Virus record (IMG/VR): IMGVR_UViG_3300037541_000343
Location: 1 to 37,356 of that record
Origin: a virus
Strand: one strand, 5' to 3'
DNA: 37,356 bases
The notes under the pieces are model-generated. The model was given only the letters and a program-made list of their open reading frames with translations. It was not told where the DNA came from and made no database searches. This document shows, piece after piece, positions 1,201 to 37,356 of this stretch (position 1 is the stretch's first letter; each line of letters starts with the position of its first letter). Position numbers and translations under genes: made by a program.

Positions 1201-1201
1201 C

Positions 1202-1251
1202 GGCCCCACTCCCTACCGGCCCCGTTCGGGGGTCGGTAGCGGGGTGGGGCC
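1202..1251 (+). terminator. Terminator hairpin after the left-end gene
   Basis: Long interrupted stem: arms GGCCCCAC (1202-1209) and GTGGGGCC (1244-1251), then CCC/GGG, TACCG/CGGTA and CCCC/GGGG, closed by the tetraloop GTTC (1224-1227). It is followed by CTTTG, not a full T-tract. It lies 28 bases after the stop codon of the left-end gene. Confidence 0.7.
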
Positions 1252-1444
1252 TTTGCGCGTCTCGGGTCGGTGCGGTCGGGCGCGCGGTCGGGAAATCTGA
1301 CCAGCGGGATGAGAACCTTAGTTCTGTTCCCGCCCGCGGCGCCCCGAATCGCCCCTGGCAGGGGGGTGTGGGGGGGCGGGGGGCTAGTCGTAACAGACTG
1401 GTTCTAACCAACTTTGGGAAACTAACGTTTCTCCCATTTGGGAG

Positions 1445-1473
1445 TTGACAATTTAGTTGTCAGAGCTAACGAT
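1445..1473 (+). promoter_or_regulatory. Promoter-like site in the left non-coding region
   Basis: TTGACA at 1445-1450 and AACGAT at 1468-1473 are 17 bp apart. The -35 box overlaps an inverted repeat TGACAA (1446-1451)/TTGTCA (1457-1462), and another, CTCCCA/TGGGAG, sits just upstream (1431-1444), so the site may be controlled. It would drive transcription through the hairpin array and perhaps on towards the terminase genes. The -10 match is weak. Confidence 0.45.
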
Positions 1474-1474
1474 T

Positions 1475-1803
1475 GTGAGGGGCGGGGAAAGGCGGGTTCC
1501 CTCTCGCTGCTACTTCCCCCTCGCGAAACGGGAAATCCGAATGCGAGTGGACAGAATTCTTGACCGAAAGGCCGTTTCGGTCAAGAATTGTTTACCTTGG
1601 CTTAGATCAGATCGGCACCCCTAAAGGGTGCCGATTACTGTCACTGTCCAGAACGACCTCACCCACCGCACAGGTGGGTGAGGTAACGCCCAATCACGCT
1701 TTCGCGTGATGTGTTCGTTACATCTGTATCCGCCACCGCTTTCCGGTGGCGGATCTTCAAGCAAGTACTCAATCCACCACCTCGCATCGGTGGTGGATCT
1801 TTT
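1475..1803 (+). ncRNA. Six-hairpin array, candidate structured RNA
   Basis: Six separate perfect inverted repeats follow one another: 1555-1589 (15-bp stem), 1611-1635 (10 bp), 1656-1684 (12 bp), 1693-1710 (7 bp), 1728-1754 (11 bp) and 1772-1798 (10 bp). Loops are 4-7 bases and linkers 8-21 bases. Hairpins 5 and 6 share the form ATCCxCCACC/GGTGGxGGAT, with a G-C pair in one replaced by an A-T pair in the other, which keeps the pairing. Hairpin 6 is followed by CTTTT, like an intrinsic terminator. A promoter-like site lies at 1445-1473. No convincing reading frame is present. It could be a phage RNA of about 320 bases, a replication origin, a packaging signal next to the terminase genes, or stacked terminators. 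The hairpins are certain; the RNA call is inference. Confidence 0.45.
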
Positions 1804-1914
1804 CACCGTTCCCTCGCCCCCCCCTTACCCCCCCCATTAGGCGTCGCTCGACCTGGGGAAACCTCCCAAGCGGCAAACATTGCAACACACTTGTAACATT
1901 TGCAGCCTCTATGG

Positions 1915-1935
1915 ACGCCCACAACGGGGTGTAAG
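1915..1935 (+). promoter_or_regulatory. Start-associated repeat, copy before small terminase
   Basis: Motif beginning ACGCCCACAACGG and ending GTAAG, 27 bases before the ATG at 1942. Close relatives stand at 15231-15252 and 22336-22357, each 24-27 bases ahead of a late gene. The GTAAG or TATAAG tail could be a -10 element; a translational role is also possible. Confidence 0.5.
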
Positions 1936-1941
1936 GGTGCC

Positions 1942-2439
1942 ATGGGACTCCGAGGACCGAGAAGCGCCACCGAACGGGCCGCGCTCAACGCCAAACTGAA
2001 TCACCGCAAAGACGCAGATGTCCGTCCACTCGACGAACGCCAACTGGCGTACATCGAGTGGCTAGTCTGCCCTCGCCCTGAACGCAACCCGCCGACGCAG
2101 CAGGAGTTCGCCGCCCAGCTCGGCGTCACCCCGCAATCCCTTGCGAAGTGGCGCCAGCACCCGTCGTTCAAGGCAACATGGGACGCGCGAGTCGACCAGC
2201 TCGCTGGCTCCCCAGAACGAGCGCAAGCCGTCTACGACGCAATCTTCCAGAGGGCCGTAGAGGGCGACGTACGGGCCGCAGAGCTGTTCCTGAAGGCATC
2301 GGGCCGCCTCCAGCCCCCAACGGTCACCGTGACCACCTCAAACCCCGCTGCGGACCTCTCCGACGACGAACTCGAATCCCTGATCGTCCAGGCCGCCAAG
2401 GCGGAACACGGTCGCCGACTCAAAGTCGTAAATGACTGA
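1942..2439 (+). CDS. terS: Terminase small subunit
   Basis: DNA-recognition subunit of the packaging motor. The 165-residue protein begins with GLRGPRS, an opening often seen in phage small terminases, and has a helix-turn-helix at about residues 51-72 (TQQEFAAQLGVTPQSLAKW) for binding the packaging site. The ATG at 1942 is preceded by AAGGG at suitable spacing; an upstream in-frame ATG at 1900 is less likely because the start-associated repeat lies between. The reading frame overlaps the large terminase by 8 bases, as expected for a coupled pair. Assignment rests on the helix-turn-helix, size and position. Confidence 0.85.
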   Translation: MGLRGPRSATERAALNAKLNHRKDADVRPLDERQLAYIEWLVCPRPERNPPTQQEFAAQLGVTPQSLAKWRQHPSFKATWDARVDQLAGSPERAQAVYDAIFQRAVEGDVRAAELFLKASGRLQPPTVTVTTSNPAADLSDDELESLIVQAAKAEHGRRLKVVND

Positions 2440-4027
2440 ACTCAACGCCCTCCTCACGGAGAGGCGCTGGCGCCAGTACTTCCCCCGCTGGGACGAATCC
2501 ACCACTGAAGCCAAATTGGCGGCATTCGAGAAGTTCTGTTCCGAATGCTGGACCATCCGCCACCCGTCGGACGGCCGCATCCCGTTCAACCTCCGCGACA
2601 CCCAACGCGAAACAGTTCGCTTCTGGCTCGACAACCGCTACACCCTCGTCCTCAAGGCGCGGCAGCTCGGGTACTCCACCCTCGCTGCCGCCTTTGTCTT
2701 CTGGTGCGCGTTCGGCTACGCCGACCGCTACATCGTCATGCTCTCCCGCACCGAACGAGAATCCGTCAGCCTTCTCGCCAAAGTGAAGTACGGGCTCAAA
2801 GGGCTCCCGTCGTGGATGACGGACCGAGGACCGTCGCTGATCGACGACTCGCAACAGCGAATCACCTTCGACAACGACTCGCGAATCGCGTCCTTCCCCT
2901 CGTCGAACGACCCCGCCCGAGGGGAAACCGTCTGGCTCGTAATCGTCGACGAGTGGGCGTTCCTCCCCGACGCCGAATCCGCCTGGGCCTCCATCGAGCC
3001 GATCACCGACGTCGGTGGCCGCTGCATCGGCATCTCCACGGCCAACGGGTGGGGGAACTTCTTCCACGCCATGTGGGTAAAGGCGGAAAGCGGAGCCTCC
3101 CGCTTCAAACCGATGTTCTACCCATGGAACGCCGACGGAATCCGCGGAGAGGACTGGTACCAGTCAAAGGCGGCCGACACCCCCGACTGGCTCATGGCCC
3201 AGGAGTACCCCTCCAACCCCGACGAAGCGTTCATCAAATCAGGCCGAACCGTCTTCGACGTCGACCTGATCTCAAAAATGAACGACCTGGAAGCCACCCG
3301 AGGCTACCTCGAAGGCGCGAACAGGGTGGATTTCACGCCCTACGCAAACGGCAACCTTCACGTCTACCAGTTCCCCGCCGAAGGCCACGTATACGTCGTA
3401 GGTGCCGACATTGCTGAAGGGCTGGACCACGGCGACTTCTCCTGCGCGTTCGTCCTTGACGCCTTCAACGGCGACATCGTCGCCCAATGGCACGGACACC
3501 TCGACCCCGACGTGTTCGGCGAGACACTCGCCGACATCGGGTGGTTCTACAACACCGCCCTCGTCTGCCCCGAGTCAAACAACCACGGCCTGACCACCGT
3601 CAAGGCGCTCCAAAGGGCTGGCTACCAGCGAATCTTCCGACAGCGCAAGCTGTCGTCAATTCGGGAAAACCGCACCGAAGTCTACGGATGGCGGACAACC
3701 CACGTCTCCAAGCCCCTGGTCATTGACGGCCTTGGCGCCTATCTCCGAGACCACAACGTCCCCTGCCCTCACGCCAGAGCGGAGCTGCGTACTTACGTCC
3801 GCGACGAGAACGGCCGCACCAGCGGCTCTCCCCACGATGATCGCGTCATGGCGCTGGCCATCGCCGTTCAGATGCTCCTCTGGGCGCGAACCCCCGAACA
3901 GCGCATGGACGTCAAAGCAGACACGGGTACATTCGGCTGGTATCAGCGCCTCGCCGACCAGCAATCAAGCAAGGCGGAGAATCGGAAACCTCTCGGATTC
4001 TTCAACACCCGCCGACGAAGGGGATAA
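2432..4027 (+). CDS. terL: Terminase large subunit
   Basis: ATP-driven motor and nuclease that packages DNA into the prohead. 531 residues, a normal full length. ATPase: Walker A variant KARQLGYST at 75-83, Walker B VIVDE at 170-174 and coupling motif GISTA near 200-204. RNase H-like nuclease: acidic residues at D326 (GADIAEG), E381 (CPESNN) and D469/D470 (PHDDR). All key residues are present, so it should be active. It overlaps the small terminase by 8 bases. Confidence 0.95.
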   Translation: MTELNALLTERRWRQYFPRWDESTTEAKLAAFEKFCSECWTIRHPSDGRIPFNLRDTQRETVRFWLDNRYTLVLKARQLGYSTLAAAFVFWCAFGYADRYIVMLSRTERESVSLLAKVKYGLKGLPSWMTDRGPSLIDDSQQRITFDNDSRIASFPSSNDPARGETVWLVIVDEWAFLPDAESAWASIEPITDVGGRCIGISTANGWGNFFHAMWVKAESGASRFKPMFYPWNADGIRGEDWYQSKAADTPDWLMAQEYPSNPDEAFIKSGRTVFDVDLISKMNDLEATRGYLEGANRVDFTPYANGNLHVYQFPAEGHVYVVGADIAEGLDHGDFSCAFVLDAFNGDIVAQWHGHLDPDVFGETLADIGWFYNTALVCPESNNHGLTTVKALQRAGYQRIFRQRKLSSIRENRTEVYGWRTTHVSKPLVIDGLGAYLRDHNVPCPHARAELRTYVRDENGRTSGSPHDDRVMALAIAVQMLLWARTPEQRMDVKADTGTFGWYQRLADQQSSKAENRKPLGFFNTRRRRG

Positions 4028-4050: not shown

Positions 4051-4284
4051 ATGAAGGTTTGCACGCAATGTCGCCAAATGCGGCCCAGCGCCAGCTACAG
4101 CGAAACACGCTCTTGCTGCTTCGCGTGCCACCTGAAGAGCGTGCAGCTCGGATCCGTTTACCGAGGCGGAGACAAAGACTTCTTCCGCGACGTTACTGAA
4201 CGCGAGTTCAATCGCAAGACCATCGAAGAGGGCCGAGCAAAGGGTCACGAGCCAGTTCCCGTCAATCGCCGCCAGTGGATCTAA
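4051..4284 (+). CDS. Small zinc-finger protein
   Basis: 77 residues. CTQC near the N-terminus and CCFAC after residue 20 form a likely four-cysteine zinc site; the C-terminal half is charged (DFFRDVTEREFNRKTIEEG). Not assigned to a named family. AAAGAAG precedes the ATG. A weak copy of the start-associated repeat (ACGCCC...CGGTAAAG) lies at 4027-4047. It overlaps the endonuclease gene by TAATG, which suggests the two are translated together and may both act on DNA during packaging. Confidence 0.75.
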   Translation: MKVCTQCRQMRPSASYSETRSCCFACHLKSVQLGSVYRGGDKDFFRDVTEREFNRKTIEEGRAKGHEPVPVNRRQWI

Positions 4285-4691
4285 TGTCGCCGCACCCCGA
4301 ATACCGACGGGCGTACTACGAGCTGAATAAGGAGCGGATTCGCGCAAAGGCGAACGTCGCGCGCCAGCGGCGGCGTTTGGACCCCGAATACCGTAAACGC
4401 GAACAAGAGCGCAATCGCGAATACGGGCGAACCCCCCGCACCGCCGAACAGCGTAAGAAGCACAGGGTCTCGACGTCCTACCGCATCGACATTCAGCTTT
4501 ACGAGGAACTCCTCTCCAAGCCTTGTGCCATCTGCGGGACGGCAATCTCGACAGTCCTCGACCATTGTCACATAACAGGGAAAGTTCGCGGCGGGCTCTG
4601 CAATCGCTGCAACGTCGGACTTGGAATGCTGAAAGACGATCTCAACATCGTTACGGCGGCAGCCCGCTACCTCAAAGAACACGAGGGCTGA
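4284..4691 (+). CDS. Endonuclease VII-like HNH nuclease
   Basis: Resolves branched DNA before packaging, as T4 gp49 does, or nicks DNA. 135 residues from the ATG at 4284. The basic N-terminal half is a probable helix. The C-terminal half is the endonuclease VII fold: C81-x2-C84, DHCH at 93-96, then C106-x2-C109 with N110 and D118. The four cysteines bind zinc and DHCH is the catalytic core; all are present. It sits between large terminase and portal, a usual place for packaging-linked HNH enzymes. A GTG at 4275 is an alternative start. Confidence 0.88.
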   Translation: MSPHPEYRRAYYELNKERIRAKANVARQRRRLDPEYRKREQERNREYGRTPRTAEQRKKHRVSTSYRIDIQLYEELLSKPCAICGTAISTVLDHCHITGKVRGGLCNRCNVGLGMLKDDLNIVTAAARYLKEHEG

Positions 4692-6740: not shown

Positions 6741-9416
6741 ATGGCAGTAGCGAAGAATCTCGGTGGCGGCGGAGTGGCGCTCGACGCGCAGTACGGGTCG
6801 TCGCCTGGCAGCAACACCAACGAGCCCCTTCTGCTCGGGCACAGCGGCGCGAATTACCTCTACCTGCCTGGTGTAACGGGCAACTTCGCCTCGGTCCCCG
6901 ACTCGGCGGCGCTGGACATCACGGGTGACCTTGAGTTGGTCTTACGCATATCGCTCGATGACTGGACTCCCGCAAGCGAGGAGTACCCGTTCGCGAAGCG
7001 AGGCGGGGCTAACCAAAAATCCTGGTTGTGGGCAGCAACCACGGGCGGGCTCATGCGGCTTTACTATTCAACGGATGGCAGCACCGAGGCGACCGCTACT
7101 TCGACTGCTGCCGTGCCGTTTACGAACGGCCAGGCCGGATGGCTAAAGATCACGCTGGACGTCGACAACGGTGCGGGCGGTCGTGACGTCAAGTTTTTCA
7201 CCGCAGCCGATCAGGCAACCGAACCGACAACGTTCACGCAACTCGGCGCAACGATTACGACTGCGGGCACGATCTCGCTGTTCAACAGCACGAGCGTCGT
7301 GAGCGTTGGCGCATACGCTGACGGCGGGTGGACTTCGGGCAAGTTCTATAGGGCAATCGTCCGCAACGGCATCGGCGGCACGACCGTGCTGGACGTGGAC
7401 TTCACCACGGGCATCACCTCGGGCGGGCAAGTGCGGATCCACTCCGACGGCCCTGGCGCTCCCGTCATCCCTATCGCGGCAGACACCGCCATCAACCTCG
7501 GCACGGGGGGCGCCGTCCTGGACGCCCGCTACGGCTCGGCGGTTGGGTCCGACACGAACGACCCGCTTCTGCTTGAGCACAGCGGCACGAACTACCTCTA
7601 CCTGCCTGGCGTGAGCGGCAACTACGCGTCCGTTCCCGATTCGGCGGCGCTCGATCTCACGACCGAGGCCGACATCCAGGTCCGCATCGCGTTCGACGAC
7701 TGGACGCCTGCCGTGCTCGGCCGGATCATTTGGAAGGGCAATACCGCTGGCACCGACCATGCCTACGGATTCACACTCAACGCAGCCGGAACACTGAATT
7801 GGCGCATCGGCGCTACGGCTGGTGTCAACGCCACGTCGTCAGTCGCGACAGGTCTTACCGATGGCTCGGCGGCATGGATTCGGGTGACCTGGCGCGCCTC
7901 TGACGGTCGCACGCAGTTCTTCACGGCTGCCGACAGCGCAACCGTTCCGTCGTCGTGGACGCAGTTAGGGACCGATCAGACGGCAAGCCTGGCAAGCCTC
8001 AACGACTCCACCTCGGCGCTGCACATCGGCGAACAGGGGGCTGGCGGCGGCAACACCGTGGCGGGCAAGGTTTATCGGGTTCGCGTCCTGTCGACCATCG
8101 GCGGCACGACGGTGCTCGACGCCAACTTCACCACCGGCATCACCTCGGGCGGACAGACCAGCTTCACCGAGTCGAGCAGCAACGCCGCAACGGTGACCAT
8201 CAACCGCTCCACGAGCGGCCGCAAGGCGGTCGCCGTCGTGCGGAACGTGTGGCTGCTCGGCACCGACGACTACTTCGAGGTGGCTGACAATGACTTGTTG
8301 GACTTCGGGGCGACCGACTCCTTCACCGTTGTCGCCGTCGTGCGGCAGTGGGCAACACCGACGAACTTCGGGCGATATGTGTCGAAGCGACCGATCCCGA
8401 ACGGCGACACTGGCTACGAGATGTTGTCGGAAGGGACGACCCTGAGTCTGCACGCAGCGATCGACAGCGGAACGCCAGCAGCCTCTCGTGTTGGGTTGAC
8501 CACATTCACGGCGGGCACGCTTAGCTCGCTGGGATTCGTTGTTGATCGTTCTACTCAGACGATGGCGTCGTTTACCGGCGGGACGTTATCCGCAACTGCC
8601 GACACGTCTGGCGTTGGATCACTCGTGAGCAGCGAGGGGTTGCGCATCGGCTCAAGAAGCGCAAGCACCGCCTATCAGGACTTCGAACTCCTCGCCGCTC
8701 TCGTGTTCCGACGGGCGCTGTCAGCGTCCGAACTTCAAGACATCGAGACTCACTACACCTCCGCCCCGACGGCAACGAGCAACGCCCTCATGGCGGGCTC
8801 CGTGTTCTGGATTGACGCTGGGCGGCAGAGGACCCTCACTATCAACCGCTCCACGAGCGGCCGCAAGAGCGTGGCTGTCGTGCGGAACGTGTGGCTGCTC
8901 GGCACCGACGACTACTTCGAAGTGGCCGACAACGACCTGCTCGACTTCGGGCCGACCGAATCGTTCACCGTCGTCGCGATCTATCGCAACTGGTCGACAA
9001 TTATTACTCAGCACACGTATGTCTCAAAGAAGCAAGACACCTCGGCGAGCACCGTTGGATGGATGCTTTATGGGAACCCTGGGCTGCCGAACGCGAGCTC
9101 AATGATTGGTGACGGCACGGACCGTCCATACGTCGATGGAGTCACGGCAGGAGCCGCAGGAACCGCTGTAATGTCTGTGGCGATCAGGAATACGCAAACC
9201 GATCAGTTGATCGCATACACGCGCGTCGGTTCTGCGGCGGCGCCGACGACCGATAGCACCACGACAAGCATTGCAAACAATCTCGCAATGCGAATCGGTC
9301 GCCGAGCTGGGAGCGGCACGGGCTACGCCGACATGGAACTCCTCGCCGCCATGGTGTTCCGACGTGCGCTGTCCGCCGCCGAACTGTCCGCCATCGCCGC
9401 CTACTACGGAGTCTGA
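6741..9416 (+). CDS. LamG-like repeat virion protein (fibre or capsid decoration)
   Basis: 891 residues built from four concanavalin/LamG-like modules in the order A-A-B-B. A modules start near residues 4 and 251 (ALDAQYGS/VLDARYGS, LYLPGV, FASVPDSAALD, DDWTP). B modules start near 486 and 700 (NRSTSGRK, VWLLGTDDYFEVADNDLLDFG, LVFRRALSA). The B copies are also very similar in DNA, showing a recent duplication. Such beta-sandwich modules bind sugars or cell-surface molecules. The gene lies inside the head cluster, between portal and scaffold, so it may be a capsid-surface fibre; a tail fibre is the other possibility. No signal peptide. Confidence 0.75.
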   Translation: MAVAKNLGGGGVALDAQYGSSPGSNTNEPLLLGHSGANYLYLPGVTGNFASVPDSAALDITGDLELVLRISLDDWTPASEEYPFAKRGGANQKSWLWAATTGGLMRLYYSTDGSTEATATSTAAVPFTNGQAGWLKITLDVDNGAGGRDVKFFTAADQATEPTTFTQLGATITTAGTISLFNSTSVVSVGAYADGGWTSGKFYRAIVRNGIGGTTVLDVDFTTGITSGGQVRIHSDGPGAPVIPIAADTAINLGTGGAVLDARYGSAVGSDTNDPLLLEHSGTNYLYLPGVSGNYASVPDSAALDLTTEADIQVRIAFDDWTPAVLGRIIWKGNTAGTDHAYGFTLNAAGTLNWRIGATAGVNATSSVATGLTDGSAAWIRVTWRASDGRTQFFTAADSATVPSSWTQLGTDQTASLASLNDSTSALHIGEQGAGGGNTVAGKVYRVRVLSTIGGTTVLDANFTTGITSGGQTSFTESSSNAATVTINRSTSGRKAVAVVRNVWLLGTDDYFEVADNDLLDFGATDSFTVVAVVRQWATPTNFGRYVSKRPIPNGDTGYEMLSEGTTLSLHAAIDSGTPAASRVGLTTFTAGTLSSLGFVVDRSTQTMASFTGGTLSATADTSGVGSLVSSEGLRIGSRSASTAYQDFELLAALVFRRALSASELQDIETHYTSAPTATSNALMAGSVFWIDAGRQRTLTINRSTSGRKSVAVVRNVWLLGTDDYFEVADNDLLDFGPTESFTVVAIYRNWSTIITQHTYVSKKQDTSASTVGWMLYGNPGLPNASSMIGDGTDRPYVDGVTAGAAGTAVMSVAIRNTQTDQLIAYTRVGSAAAPTTDSTTTSIANNLAMRIGRRAGSGTGYADMELLAAMVFRRALSAAELSAIAAYYGV

Positions 9417-23585: not shown

Positions 23586-23588
23586 CGT

Positions 23589-25066: not shown

Positions 25067-25559
25067 GTTGCGCTCCCCAGTTCCCGTCGATCATCAACAC
25101 GGCAGCGACGCAGTAGCCAATCGTGTCGTGAAGCGTGTCGAGAAGGGACTCATCACGATAAACGGATTCATCCCATGATGCGCCCGTCAAGTTGTCGTAA
25201 CGAGCAAGCTTGTCGGCCAGCCTCACGCAAATGCCGTTCAACCCGTGGCGCTCCAGGTTCTTGGGTCCGTACGTGCGCCGCTTGTGCTCCAGGAGCCAGG
25301 CAACGTCGGAGACGACCTGAGCGACGTCGCTTGCGCTCGGGTCGCCCGACCATTGACGGCGCCATGGGAAGGGCGGGGTCATCGTCGCCGCCCTTAGGGC
25401 GGCGCCGCCAAGGGCGCAGAACCCCGAACGTGCCATGTTCATCTCTCCAACCGCTTGCTCGAAGTGAGAAAGGTCGGGGCAGTTGCCTGTCGCGTGGGGG
25501 CGAAACGACTCAAGCGCCTCTTGAACGTAGTGCTGAAACGAGCTGGGATACGCGTTCAT
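25050..25559 (-). CDS. DUF1599-like (nucleotide modification-associated) protein
   Basis: 169 residues. The C-terminal half carries the pattern YGPKNLERHGLNG, VRLADKLARYDNL (112-124) and DESLLDTLHDTIGYC (136-150), which matches the all-helical Nmad1/DUF1599 family. Some members lie with DNA-modifying genes; others are common in phages without known modification, so the role here is open. Conserved Asp/Glu residues (D116, E137, D141, D145) could bind metal and a nucleotide. ATGA overlap with the upstream sigma-like gene. Confidence 0.7.
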   Translation of the reverse strand: MNAYPSSFQHYVQEALESFRPHATGNCPDLSHFEQAVGEMNMARSGFCALGGAALRAATMTPPFPWRRQWSGDPSASDVAQVVSDVAWLLEHKRRTYGPKNLERHGLNGICVRLADKLARYDNLTGASWDESVYRDESLLDTLHDTIGYCVAAVLMIDGNWGAQLAEED

Positions 25560-25918
25560 CCATATCCTTTCGGTGAAAGCTCACGTCGGAGTTTCGCCAT
25601 CGCCTTGTCGGCGATGTCGCGAACGGTCCGTCGACTCAGGTTCATGCGCCTTGCCAACGTCTGCTGGCTGATCTTCTCGAACACGAGACTTTCGACCACA
25701 AAGCGTTCGCGTTCGTCGAGAACGTCCAAGGCGTCTAGGACGTCGTCTCTGCGGGCAAGCGACTGGCGCTTGCTGGGTTCAGGCTCGTGGCCAGGAGCGG
25801 CCTCCATGAGTGCCTGCACGTCCGTCTCGGGGCCGTTGCGGTCGCGATCACCCCAACCTTCGTTGCGGGAGCCCCAGGGGTGGATCTCGCCAACGGGGGA
25901 GGGGTTCGGTCTAGCCAT
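25556..25918 (-). CDS. Sigma region 4-like DNA-binding regulator
   Basis: 120 residues. The C-terminal half (about 60-115) is a helix-turn-helix of the sigma-70 region 4 type: LDERERFVVESLVF, ISQQTLARRMNLSRRTVRDIA, AMAKLRREL. No region 2, so it is not a full sigma factor; it may be a transcription activator of late genes. The first 50 residues are disordered. The ATG lies at the centre of a 22-bp palindrome and no clear ribosome binding site is visible, so the gene may control itself through that site. Confidence 0.75.
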   Translation of the reverse strand: MARPNPSPVGEIHPWGSRNEGWGDRDRNGPETDVQALMEAAPGHEPEPSKRQSLARRDDVLDALDVLDERERFVVESLVFEKISQQTLARRMNLSRRTVRDIADKAMAKLRRELSPKGYG

Positions 25919-26836: not shown

Positions 26837-27115
26837 TCATGTGGGGTTCGCATCTGGAAACAGTTCGAGCTGCTGAAAGCCTCGCTGGTGGGCACCAAAG
26901 CCGATACCGTAGATCGGCTCGTCTGGGCCATAACGGAGCAGGTCCCGCCCCCCGTCCCAGGTTTCTACGGTTATCAGGCTCGGCGGAGTGGGGGAGTTCA
27001 CAAGCTCATTGAGCATGTGCGACGCTTCAGCGGGCGTCAGCAGTGGCTTGATCGGGCTGGAGATGTACCCACCGCCGTGCCAGGTTGCGGAAACCTGATA
27101 GCGAATCTGCTTCAC
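26837..27115 (-). CDS. Hypothetical small protein after the primase
   Basis: 92 residues from a GTG at 27115, overlapping the primase stop as GTGA. Mixed alpha/beta: YQVSATWHGGGYISSP, then PAEASHMLNELVNS. No family recognised. Position suggests a replication accessory role. Confidence 0.65.
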   Translation of the reverse strand: MKQIRYQVSATWHGGGYISSPIKPLLTPAEASHMLNELVNSPTPPSLITVETWDGGRDLLRYGPDEPIYGIGFGAHQRGFQQLELFPDANPT

Positions 27116-28026
27116 GAGAGTTCTTCTCCGTATGCGAGGCCGAGGATTTCAAGGAGTCGTTGCTCGCCGTCGGCGCGAGTCGAGAACTTCCCCCATCGGG
27201 AGTCGGCAATGGTCAGGGCAAGCGCTGCTGTCGCGACGTCGAGGCCAGATTCGGCCATCCTGTGAGCAAGCCTGACTAGAGAGTTGCTCCTGTCGTGACC
27301 TGGCCTTGGCCCGTCCAGGACGATCATTCGGATCCCCTTGGGGAGTCGATCCACCAGCGCGCGAAGTGTCGCGGGGTCAACAACGGGGATGGAGGCGATG
27401 GTGTCAGACTTGGGCCTCACGCTCGGCACTTCTGCCGCCAGCTCTGCCCAGCGTGAGTTTGGGGCAGCGGCGCAAGCCGTTGCGCCGACGACGAAATCCT
27501 CCAGGGAAAGCTCGCTCCCCCTGGGGGTAATCACCACCTGCCGATCAGGCTTGCGAATGTCTGGGTAAGGAAGGCGGACGAAGTTGCCGTAAGACCCTGG
27601 CGCCAGGGCCACCTGCTTGGGGTTCACCTCTCTGGGCGCGTAGCCAGACGCCTCGCAGGCGTGGAGGAGCCCTGCCCTGACGTGCCCAGCGGGAACAGCG
27701 TGAGAGAAGAACACCCAGACGTGATACCCCTTCGAGCGGGAGCGCTCAACGAAAGCCCACTGGTCTAGTTCTCGCGTGATTGAGTTCCGGACGTCGAAGG
27801 CGAGGTCGGGATCTTCAAAGTCGATGTCGACGCAGCCCCAATAGACGTTGTTGTCGCTGTTGATCGGGTAGATGCCGATTGGGGCCGACCCCCAGAGGTG
27901 GCCATCGAATGTGTGAGCCAAGGGCGTCATGTGGACGCATCGGGGCAAATCCCCGCCCGCCCCGTAGGCATCGGTGTTTCCTCGGAATAGCTGTGCAAAG
28001 GCGTCGCGCAGCTCGGTTCTATCCAT
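27112..28026 (-). CDS. AEP-family primase (primase-polymerase-like)
   Basis: Makes primers, and perhaps DNA, at the fork. 304 residues. Archaeo-eukaryotic primase signatures: D67-I-D69 (WGCVDIDFED) binding metal, S98-K-G-Y-H102 (RSKGYHVWVFF), then NPKQ (135-138) and GNFVRLPY (147-154), the layout of phage and TOTE-type primases. The C-terminal part (200-304) is helical and may contact the helicase. AAGGGG precedes the ATG. The helicase gene is nine bases upstream. A dual primase-polymerase role is inferred because no DNA polymerase is in the window. Confidence 0.85.
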   Translation of the reverse strand: MDRTELRDAFAQLFRGNTDAYGAGGDLPRCVHMTPLAHTFDGHLWGSAPIGIYPINSDNNVYWGCVDIDFEDPDLAFDVRNSITRELDQWAFVERSRSKGYHVWVFFSHAVPAGHVRAGLLHACEASGYAPREVNPKQVALAPGSYGNFVRLPYPDIRKPDRQVVITPRGSELSLEDFVVGATACAAAPNSRWAELAAEVPSVRPKSDTIASIPVVDPATLRALVDRLPKGIRMIVLDGPRPGHDRSNSLVRLAHRMAESGLDVATAALALTIADSRWGKFSTRADGEQRLLEILGLAYGEELS

Positions 28027-28035
28027 TAGTGCCCC

Positions 28036-29100
28036 TTAGGAGCGCAGCGCCCGCATTGCGGGCGACAAGTTCATGTCCTCAACATCTTCACAAGCGGCGG
28101 GCTTGACGGGGGGAAGTGCCTCAATGAGCGGCCCAATGATTCTTCCCGACGCTGGATCAATGGCTAGATCCAGCTCGTCGACAAGATCACAGGGCGGGGT
28201 CTTGTTCTTCAGCAGAGACACTGTGATGGTCGTCTCGTGCTTTGAAAGCTCGTACTCCAAGTCGGGGAGCACGATTTCGACCAGCCGATCCCTGGTTGCC
28301 GACGATGTCGTCGGCTTTGCCATCGTCTCGCGAGCCTCTCGAATGGCCGACAGGAGCGCATTCTTCTTGCGGCGGATGCCGACGAGGTGAGTCGCCTCCT
28401 TCTCGCCGCCGTATTCACCTGAAGTCATCGTCATGACCTGGCCGTCACGTCCCGAGGTTCGCGACGCCTGATGCAACACGAACATCGAGACGCGATTCCT
28501 CTTGCCGAACGCCTTTAGGGCTTGAACCTTCGAGCGGATGTCCTCGCCGTGATCCAGTAGGGCGGCGTAGTCGAACACGACGGCTTCGACTGGATCGCCC
28601 CATTCCTCCGCCATTTCGAGCAAGGCTCGCTCCATGTCGGGAACCGACACGGATGCGTCAACCACGGAGAGGGTGGGGTAGGAATCGCAGGTTTCCTGCA
28701 TGATGTCTCGGGCGTGACGGTTGCCATCCGACATCCAGCCCTCAAGCCGTCGGGCTGATACCCCGTGCTTAGCGCACGTCAGTTTCACCAGGATCAGCTC
28801 GCGCGTCTCGTCGGGCGTGAAGACAGCGATCCGACGTTGGGGATTGTGCAACAGCATCTTCGTGGTGAACAGCGTCTTACCTGAGTGGGCGAACCCAGTG
28901 ATGAGAGTCAATTGCCCAGGTGCCGTTCCACGCATGGCGGCATCGAGGGCGTCGACCCCCGTGTAGACCCTCTCCTGAGGGGTGGATGCCCACCCCTCGT
29001 AGTCGTCGATGGCGCGAGCCAGGGGAACATGCAATCGCCGTTGCTCGGCGAGCGGGGGGAGGCCCGCAAGGGCCTCCCCCAGAAGCTCGGACAGACTCAT
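28036..29100 (-). CDS. DnaB/RecA-like replicative helicase
   Basis: Unwinds the fork with ATP. 354 residues from ATG at 29100, overlapping the upstream stop as ATGA. RecA-type core: Walker A GFAHSGKT (69-76), Walker B VVFDY (D177), and FVLHQAS (H210, Q211) as motif H3. The segment VYTGVDALDAAMRGTAPGQL before Walker A is typical of DnaB C-terminal domains. The large N-terminal DnaB domain is absent, so it is a short phage version. It pairs with the primase directly downstream. Confidence 0.85.
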   Translation of the reverse strand: MSLSELLGEALAGLPPLAEQRRLHVPLARAIDDYEGWASTPQERVYTGVDALDAAMRGTAPGQLTLITGFAHSGKTLFTTKMLLHNPQRRIAVFTPDETRELILVKLTCAKHGVSARRLEGWMSDGNRHARDIMQETCDSYPTLSVVDASVSVPDMERALLEMAEEWGDPVEAVVFDYAALLDHGEDIRSKVQALKAFGKRNRVSMFVLHQASRTSGRDGQVMTMTSGEYGGEKEATHLVGIRRKKNALLSAIREARETMAKPTTSSATRDRLVEIVLPDLEYELSKHETTITVSLLKNKTPPCDLVDELDLAIDPASGRIIGPLIEALPPVKPAACEDVEDMNLSPAMRALRS

Positions 29101-29486
29101 TCGTCCTTGCCCCACCGCGAAAAGAACGCCTCACGCGAGTCGGTCCAGTCGCACGCCCTCGTGCCGCTGCCGAAGAAATCCGCCAGCTCCGTAGCGCGAT
29201 CCCAGACCCACGCACCGAAGCCGAACCTGTCGTCGAAGGGCGTGACCATGGTTTGGTCGAAGTGCGCCCGCACGGCGGCGAAGGCGTGGGTGTGAGGCGA
29301 ATCCGCTGGGGTCGCCACGATGGTGCAACCCTCCAGGCTCTCGCCGTTGGGACCCTCATTGTACATGGGCCAATCCAGCGGGATCACGGTGACGCTGACG
29401 GGAACCTGTAGCTTCTTCATGATGAACCCAGGGGAACGCAGGACGGTAGCCCCGTCCTCGTTTTTGATGAACCACATGTGGTTCAT
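29097..29486 (-). CDS. Hypothetical replication-region protein
   Basis: 129 residues from ATG at 29486, overlapping the upstream stop by ATGA. The N-terminal MNHMWFIKNEDGATVLRSPG and beta-rich middle (QVPVSVTVIPLDW) suggest a small domain; the C-terminal AAVRAHFDQTMVTPFDDRFG is helical. No family recognised. Confidence 0.65.
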   Translation of the reverse strand: MNHMWFIKNEDGATVLRSPGFIMKKLQVPVSVTVIPLDWPMYNEGPNGESLEGCTIVATPADSPHTHAFAAVRAHFDQTMVTPFDDRFGFGAWVWDRATELADFFGSGTRACDWTDSREAFFSRWGKDE

Positions 29487-33916: not shown

Positions 33917-34075
33917 CTACCAGGGGAAACGCGGGAGTGGAGCTGAGGGGAATCGAACCCCTGTACTGCGCCTGCGGCGCAATACCCGTTGCGCTGCAAC
34001 GGCTTTGTCATCAGTCCACTTCCTGCGCTTCCCGATGTTGTCGTGTTCTGATACTGCTGTCTCTGCCTTAGCCAT
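33917..34075 (-). CDS. Small basic protein whose gene spans attP
   Basis: 52 residues from ATG at 34075, the ATG inside palindrome copy 9; stop TAG at 33917-33919. The start MAKAETAVSEHDNIGKRRKW is followed by Arg-rich VLRRRRS. The reading frame runs through the attP core, so its last residues (GVRFPSAPL) are those encoded by a tmRNA 3' end. Integration would replace this tail. It could be an excisionase or a small regulator, or not expressed. No ribosome binding site is visible. Confidence 0.45.
   Translation of the reverse strand: MAKAETAVSEHDNIGKRRKWTDDKAVAAQRVLRRRRSTGVRFPSAPLPRFPW
33937..33961 (-). other. attP core matching a tmRNA 3' end
   Basis: On the leftward strand this reads GGGGTTCGATTCCCC followed by CAGCTCCAC, the T-arm and acceptor end of bacterial tmRNA (ssrA), with no partner 5' acceptor and no cloverleaf. 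Placed 35 bases before the integrase start, it is best read as the attP core for insertion into the host tmRNA gene, whose 3' end would be restored on integration. Two hairpins with three-base loops (33967-33981 and 33986-34002) lie next to it. Confidence 0.75.
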
Positions 34076-36637: not shown

Positions 36638-36901
36638 CTACTCGTCGTCGGGGGACGAATACTTCCGTAGGAAGTCGAAGGGCGCATCGGGGTTCGTTGC
36701 CCCCCACGCGTCCATGATCCTGCCGAAAGCGAGATGCGGAATGTCCGCTTCGCTTTCGGACATGAGGTCCTGCTCCTCTGCTTGTTGCGCGTGCATACTC
36801 GCAACCATCAAGTGGAGGGCAACCTCTTCCAACGCTGAGTCCCTGTCTTCTGTCACTTCACCTCCCTTCATCTGGCAGACGGCGAAGGTTAGGCGGACCA
36901 T
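36638..36901 (-). CDS. Hypothetical small early protein
   Basis: 87 residues from ATG at 36901 with GGAG five bases ahead; a GTG about 15 codons later, after GGGAGG, is another possible start. Helical, acidic (DSALEEVALHLMVASMHAQQAEEQ). No family recognised. It follows the pentapeptide-repeat gene closely. Confidence 0.65.
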   Translation of the reverse strand: MVRLTFAVCQMKGGEVTEDRDSALEEVALHLMVASMHAQQAEEQDLMSESEADIPHLAFGRIMDAWGATNPDAPFDFLRKYSSPDDE

Positions 36902-36932
36902 GGGGGCTCCCGGTCGGCGGGTGACGGGTCGG

Positions 36933-37356
36933 TCATCGGATCACCTCGGTGAGGTTGGCGCCGGTGAGGTCGGCGCCACGGAGGTCGGCGTCACGAAGGT
37001 CAGCCTTGGTGAGGTCGGCGCAGGTGAGGTTAGCCTCGGTGAGGTTGGCCCAATTGAGGTTTGCCTCGGTGAGGTATGCCTCGGTGAGGTTGGCCTCGGT
37101 GAAGTTGGCCTCGGTGAGGTTGGCGCCAGTGAGGTTGGCCTCGGTGAGGTTGGCCCAGTCGAGGTTGGCCTCGGTGAAGTCGGCGCAGTTGAGGTTGGCC
37201 CCGATCAGGTTGGCCTCGATCAGGTCGGCGCAGGTGAGGTCGGCGCCGGTGAGGTTGGCGCCGGTGAGGTCGGCGCCGGTGAGGTTGGCCTTGGTGAGGT
37301 CGGCGCCGGTGAGGTCGGCGCCGGTGAGGTTGGCGCCGGTGAGGTCGGCGCCGGTG
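36933..37356 (-). CDS. Pentapeptide-repeat protein, truncated by the window end
   Basis: At least 140 residues, made almost wholly of about 27 pentapeptides of the form A(D/N)LTG or ANLTE, ending EVIR and a TGA at 36933-36935. The start lies beyond the right end. Such repeats fold into a right-handed quadrilateral beta helix; some mimic DNA and protect or inhibit gyrase (Qnr-like), others have unknown roles. The repeat DNA is strongly homogeneous. A role against host gyrase or in immunity is only possible, not shown. Confidence 0.88.
   Translation of the reverse strand, partial: TGADLTGANLTGADLTGADLTKANLTGADLTGANLTGADLTCADLIEANLIGANLNCADFTEANLDWANLTEANLTGANLTEANFTEANLTEAYLTEANLNWANLTEANLTCADLTKADLRDADLRGADLTGANLTEVIR

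Follow-up and report, generated by a model that had tools for sequence, protein, structure and literature searches.

Six perfect hairpins upstream of the terminase genes of an uncultured podovirus-like phage: a probable control or packaging-start region

Results

The phage and the surroundings of the array

The window, by which we mean the whole stretch of DNA that was analysed, is a virus record of 37,356 bases and belongs to an uncultured, temperate, podovirus-like phage of bacteria. Downstream of an array of hairpins the genes come in the order small terminase subunit (TerS), large terminase subunit (TerL), endonuclease VII, portal and major head protein (Table 1). The gene upstream of the array (140-1174) is an orphan that belongs to no family and has relatives only in the same phage. 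The minus strand encodes an AEP primase and a DnaB-like helicase (27112-29115), a XerC-like integrase and a sigma-region-4 protein, and this last one (25556-25918), which has region 4 of sigma-70 only, is a candidate late-gene regulator. The large gene after the portal (6741-9416) contains internal repeats, e.g. 6780-6923 and 7518-7661, which are 78% alike, and has relatives in otherwise different phages.

Perfect palindromes, TTAGCCATGGCTAA / TTAGCCATATGGCTAA, are found at 23588, 30063, 34068 and 36551 and are absent in shuffled sequences. Related forms occur at 360-2210 of contig L004, the palindromes often lie just upstream of minus-strand genes, and a phage regulator may use them as its operator. 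At 36900-37356 lie repeats of GGTGAGGTTGGC, probably a minus-strand pentapeptide-repeat gene. They resemble positions 1-350 of L004, and as the right end of the window thus resembles the left part of that contig, a circular map with a short missing piece is suggested. The record has no end repeats; assembly would collapse terminal repeats (PMC3350473).

A tmRNA-like 3' end at about 33935-34015 adjoins the tyrosine integrase. The tmRNA model gives 17 bits, below the gathering score, and the T arm (GGTTCGATTCCCC..AGCTCCA, minus strand) is clear by eye. This is the probable attP of a phage that integrates into ssrA, and the array is therefore not the attP. The arms of hairpin 1, TTGACCGAAA, resemble what we take to be an actinobacterial XerC arm; an attP or dif reading of this hairpin was rejected, there being no dif match and the attP lying at the tmRNA-like site.

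Table 1. Positions of the hairpins, the elements beside them and the first packaging genes in the window.
Feature	Position	Strand	Remarks
GC-rich hairpin, long and imperfect	1201..1254	+	followed by CCTTT; read from sequence
G-run cluster GGGGGGTGTGGGGGGGCGGGGGG	1361..1383	+	roughly the C-run pair inverted; lies before the array
AT-rich stretch	1385..1474	+	several short dyads (e.g. TGACAATTTAGTTGTCA) and TTGACA at 1445; not called by promoter scanner
Hairpin 1	1555..1589		15-bp perfect stem, 5-nt loop GGCCG
Hairpin 2	1611..1635		10-bp perfect stem, loop of 5, ATC..GAT ends
Hairpin 3	1656..1684		12-bp perfect stem, loop of 5
Hairpin 4	1693..1710		7-bp perfect stem, loop of 4, ATC..GAT ends
Hairpin 5	1728..1754		11-bp perfect stem, loop of 5, ATC..GAT ends; related to hairpin 6
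Hairpin 6	1772..1798		10-bp perfect stem, loop of 7, ATC..GAT ends, then CTTTT
C-run pair CCCCCCCC-TTA-CCCCCCCC	1817..1835	+	corresponds to C6-8/TATAAT or TATAGT/C6-8 before the TerS of relatives
Inverted repeat GGCGTC..GACGCC	1840..1919		lies before TerS, after the C-run pair; belongs to an inverted repeat of 24 nt (75%)
TerS, small terminase subunit, HTH type	1942..2439	+	terminase small subunit profiles
TerL, large terminase subunit	2432..4027	+	phrog_2 type, T4-like N domain
Endonuclease VII (branched-DNA/Holliday-junction nuclease family)	4275..4691	+	inside the packaging cluster

The hairpin array

A first-pass annotation, made from the letters of the window, had described six perfect hairpins with stems of 7-15 bp that fill about 245 bases without a gene, and this description holds. 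The six occupy 244 bases (1555-1798) of non-coding DNA, with the orphan gene on one side and the terminase genes on the other, and consist of 65 Watson-Crick pairs with neither a G-U pair nor a mismatch. Folded as RNA, positions 1475-1803 reach -166.6 kcal/mol against -107.6 +/- 5.9 in dinucleotide shuffles (z = -10.0), and 40 first-order Markov simulations of the window gave at most one perfect hairpin of at least 9 bp per 320 bases, against five in the real window. The six hairpins are confirmed as real and far beyond chance.

Beyond the ATC..GAT ends of four of them, the six hairpins have no sequence in common. Hairpins 5 and 6 are alike (77% over 30 nt), and a base-pair swap between them that keeps the pairing had been read as a sign of selection; the swap is real, hairpin 5 having 1732 G / 1750 C where hairpin 6 has 1776 A / 1794 T, but this is a single event. 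The array is identical in two further contigs of this phage, which match the window at 99.8-99.9% overall, and no covariation can therefore be had from them. The CTTTT reported directly after the last hairpin is present. Of the reported upstream promoter-like site, the TTGACA stands at 1445-1450, but the -10 is poor (AACGAT) and the scanner made no call. That the region is neither a tRNA nor a known RNA agrees with our searches, in which ARAGORN found no tRNA and Rfam covariance-model scans of the array region matched no family. A direct DNA similarity search of the array region in phage records gave no match either, and the motif of hairpins 5 and 6 was found in viral contigs of the same phage and in two chance matches, one of them inside a polymerase-like gene.

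The C-run pair contains the only G or C runs of at least 8 in the window, and it is separated by 18 nt from hairpin 6, which sits where the relatives carry their hairpin. Inside the inverted repeat that follows, TTGTAACAT (1891-1899) is found in some relatives too. On the other side of the array, the AT-rich stretch is possibly a regulated promoter, and the long GC-rich hairpin is the probable terminator of the orphan gene, so that the array is not needed for its termination.

Conservation in relatives

Relatives of the TerL at 51-56% identity are numerous. No array was seen upstream of their TerL, because in many of them TerS lies about 3.5 kb further upstream. Directly upstream of TerS there is a common layout of hairpin, short spacer, C-run pair, inverted repeat and TerS, and this layout is also present in the window. 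The C-run pair of the relatives is made of a TA-containing core, mostly TATAAT or TATAGT, with a run of 6-8 C on either side. The relatives all come from metagenomes and were picked up by exact pattern matches; the counts given here cover the matches listed.

Among 85 distinct sequences (the window and 84 relatives listed), the 150 nt upstream of the C-run pair have a mean fold z-score of -2.65, and 61% lie below -2; control regions of the same sequences give -0.52 (next 150 nt), -0.73 (TerS coding) and -1.38 (just downstream), all computed with RNA energy parameters. The letters of the stems diverge between loci. As many as 70 of 83 outer arms are distinct, and arms swapped between loci pair at 41%, the native 100% being given by construction. 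Double changes that keep the pairing are seen between close relatives (L217/L222, L121/L143, L175/L213 and L220/L228), and the upstream regions of distant relatives are too diverged to be aligned for column-wise covariation. The first-pass annotation had named a lack of conserved pairing in relatives as the result that would speak against it; what we find is pairing kept at the same site in stems that have strongly diverged. Position and pairing are conserved and the stem sequence is free. As the hairpin keeps its place and its pairing and changes its letters, the array is probably not an RNA gene of its own but a control region or packaging start that has so far gone undescribed.

The number of hairpins is particular to the window, which has six perfect hairpins of at least 7 bp in 260 nt where the relatives have none to three; none of the 84 listed has six. 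In one large group of relatives, among them L217, L224, L233, L252, L262, L267 and L271, a recurring loop type, CACTNNCGTT, is carried on wholly different stems, and some hairpins of relatives (L124, L194) have a T tail. The gene upstream is usually divergent, being on the minus strand in 61, on the plus strand in 21 and missing in 2 of the 84 relatives listed, by a crude ORF rule. One contig with a TerL of 55% identity (L091) is filed under a Euryarchaeota MAG and has a 20-bp G/C hairpin just upstream of TerS; it is probably a phage contig that was binned with that MAG.

The C-run pair and the terminase genes

A scan of viral contigs for the C-run motif alone found it on at least 120 contigs. 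Where the contig has this type of TerS, the motif precedes it by 38-207 nt, in the same orientation, in 54 of 54 cases among the matches listed, and many of the 66 listed contigs that do not have this TerS carry another terminase beside the motif. In 12 listed contigs an oppositely oriented gene for a protein of about 470-577 aa ends 23-53 nt from the motif; most of these proteins have 574-577 aa and end 23-41 nt from it, and the two that were tested are both TerL of the phrog_38 type, which is T7-like. This group (L118, L131, L133, L139, L157, L160, L169, L174, L196, L197, L204 and L210) has the form C6-7-TATAGT/TATAAT-C6-7 and comes from unrelated aquatic phages. Other motif contigs have a TerL of the phrog_2 type 158-1412 nt downstream of the motif, and a strong hairpin stands immediately upstream in two of them, L146 and L168 (z -3.3 and -3.9), whereas the structured part in the phrog_38 class is 150-300 nt away. 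A part of the 66 has no terminase call near the motif, and in some of these contigs the motif is inside an ORF. That one cis element is kept beside terminases of unrelated families speaks for a role in packaging. A text search for the C-run motif in papers found no description of it.

RNA or DNA

Stems that act as RNA of one sense should tolerate G-U and not A-C. Inside the stems of the relatives there are 6 G-T against 4 A-C, in modest counts that come without a positive control; the next pair outside the stems gives 12 against 10, and the next pair inside 13 against 8. With no clear G-U excess in the relatives and zero G-U in the 65 pairs of the window, a purely RNA function is not supported. 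Compensatory pairing, which a structured RNA should show, is present, but DNA hairpins would show it too. The G-U data fit inverted repeats at the DNA level at least as well as RNA, which, the counts being what they are, is an argument and not a proof. Of the first reading of the array as a structured phage RNA, the structure has thus stood, in the form of conserved pairing with diverged stems, and the RNA part is not supported. The main alternative named at that time, an origin or a packaging site, fits better, since the C-run element adjoins terminase genes of several unrelated families.

Discussion

We suggest, at what we consider close to an even chance, that the array may be an expanded terminase-proximal element that acts at the DNA level, as a packaging-initiation or genome-junction region. 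The usual form of such an element would be a hairpin, about 10 to 30 nt, the C-run pair, the inverted repeat and TerS, and the array would be a six-unit expansion of it. The region would work as DNA, at which the packaging of replicated phage DNA starts and/or the genome junction is cut, whether as a pac site, a cos site or a terminal-repeat junction. Binding of TerS would take place next to the C-run pair, and on DNA that is supercoiled or being replicated the perfect inverted repeats might extrude as hairpins or cruciforms and so mark, stall or help to process the junction. It is conceivable that endonuclease VII acts on branched DNA at the array, but as it was not found in the relatives compared, such a role could not be general. 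The location expected of a pac, cos or terminal-repeat site, beside the terminase genes across relatives, is what we find, both in the listed contigs with this TerS and with other TerL families. The attP lying elsewhere and the usually divergent gene upstream in relatives speak for this reading as well. Against packaging it must be said that the region is unbroken in the contigs of this phage, and that a full-length end was not supported by a contig beginning at the motif. Contig ends at the motif are few, and the enrichment count is too small to judge. Also, P-SSP7, the ends of which have been mapped, has no C-run pair, and P-SCSP2 has no motif after its TerL, which is 78% identical to the T7-like class that bears the motif.

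The main rival of a packaging function is a structured 5' leader RNA that regulates the late genes, which we regard as possible but doubtful. Transcription would start at a promoter near 1445, and the hairpins would act in cis before TerS, as an attenuator, an antitermination site of the nut/put kind or an RNA stabiliser. The array does follow a possible promoter and precede the first late gene, its fold has a z of -10, the pairing is conserved in relatives, and both the CTTTT after hairpin 6 and the T tails of some relatives would suit a transcript. Protein-bound RNA hairpins often have a recurring loop on variable stems, and the CACTNNCGTT loop in one group of relatives is of this kind. On the other hand, the promoter candidate is weak, hairpins 1-5 do not have good T tails, and a clear G-U excess is not seen. 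In another class, moreover, the C-run element is on the 3' side of an oppositely oriented TerL, and a leader of TerS is therefore not applicable there.

Three further explanations are less likely than either packaging or a leader RNA. The hairpins might be single-strand initiation sites for the AEP primase and the DnaB-like helicase that the phage encodes, as parts of an origin or another replication structure, and perfect pairing without G-U would suit hairpins of single-stranded DNA; G- and C-run clusters flank the array. We consider this unlikely, for the six hairpins share only the ATC..GAT ends, and these in four, the region showed no iterons, the replication genes are some 25 kb off in the record and about 12 kb off along the circle that is inferred, and the C-run pair follows terminases and not replication genes. 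No more probable, and in our opinion slightly less so, is a cluster of transcription terminators that, in the prophage, keeps transcription from upstream out of the late operon. CTTTT and then a C-rich, G-poor stretch come after hairpin 6, and two sites pass a lax terminator scan, but 0.9 are expected in shuffles, the upstream gene already has its terminator-like hairpin and is divergent in most relatives, and many relatives have AT-rich stems. An intrinsic terminator should combine a GC-rich stem with a run of T after it, which the array does not show; a fair T tail stands after hairpin 6 alone. The reading of the first-pass annotation, a trans-acting RNA of the phage some 320 nt long, we hold to be very unlikely. 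A compact multi-hairpin region with no gene, a possible promoter and a T tail would agree with it, but it has no Rfam match and no clear G-U excess, and the relatives keep only position and pairing near TerS and no sequence.

Returning to packaging, a wider and more speculative proposal, which we put forward as rather improbable as it stands, is that a free-stem hairpin, C-run/TA/C-run and inverted repeat might together form a widespread undescribed terminase-proximal DNA element and be the start of packaging or the genome junction in many uncultured aquatic phages whose terminases are unrelated. The signal would then be the structure of the DNA hairpin (and possibly that of a G-quadruplex or i-motif) and not the base sequence, and it would be amplified six-fold here. 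For most uncultured phages the packaging start is unknown, because metagenome assemblies hide the genome ends. If the proposal is true, hairpins and a C-run pair that can be read from sequence would allow packaging sites to be predicted and tested in bulk, and if it is the DNA structure that is read, this would make the element unusual among the packaging signals of phages.

Comparison with known systems

The pac and cos sites of tailed phages lie at or just before terS and are in known cases flanked by repeats to which TerS binds. The array likewise lies just before terS, but it consists of unrelated perfect hairpins and is a putative site, read from sequence alone; to our knowledge pac and cos sites have not been described as arrays of this kind. 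The nut/put antitermination leaders of lambda and HK022 are also hairpins before an operon, one or two of them and of conserved sequence, whereas the array has six of free sequence and without G-U, and no factor for antitermination was identified in its phage. At the ssi sites of RSF1010, DNA hairpins are used together with an AEP-type primase and a hexameric helicase, and the phage of the array encodes an AEP primase and a DnaB-like helicase as well. The ssi hairpins, however, have a conserved sequence and are found at oriV, while the neighbour of the array is the terminase.

The concatemer junction or direct terminal repeat of T7-type phages is, like the array, a non-coding region tied to the terminase and to maturation of the genome. 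The passage of PMC4281155 that cites Chung and Hinkle (1990) reports a DNA hairpin containing the terminal repeat in T7 infection, and the mapped terminal repeat of P-SSP7 has a C5/G6 hairpin at about 26-39, near the start of the repeat (PMC3350473). These two cases make a packaging function of the array plausible. There are differences, in that the terminal repeat and the genome end are known in the T7-type phages and the phage of the array is known from its sequence only, and in that its TerL is of another type; its C-run element, furthermore, is a direct C/C repeat, and not an inverted C/G one as in P-SSP7.
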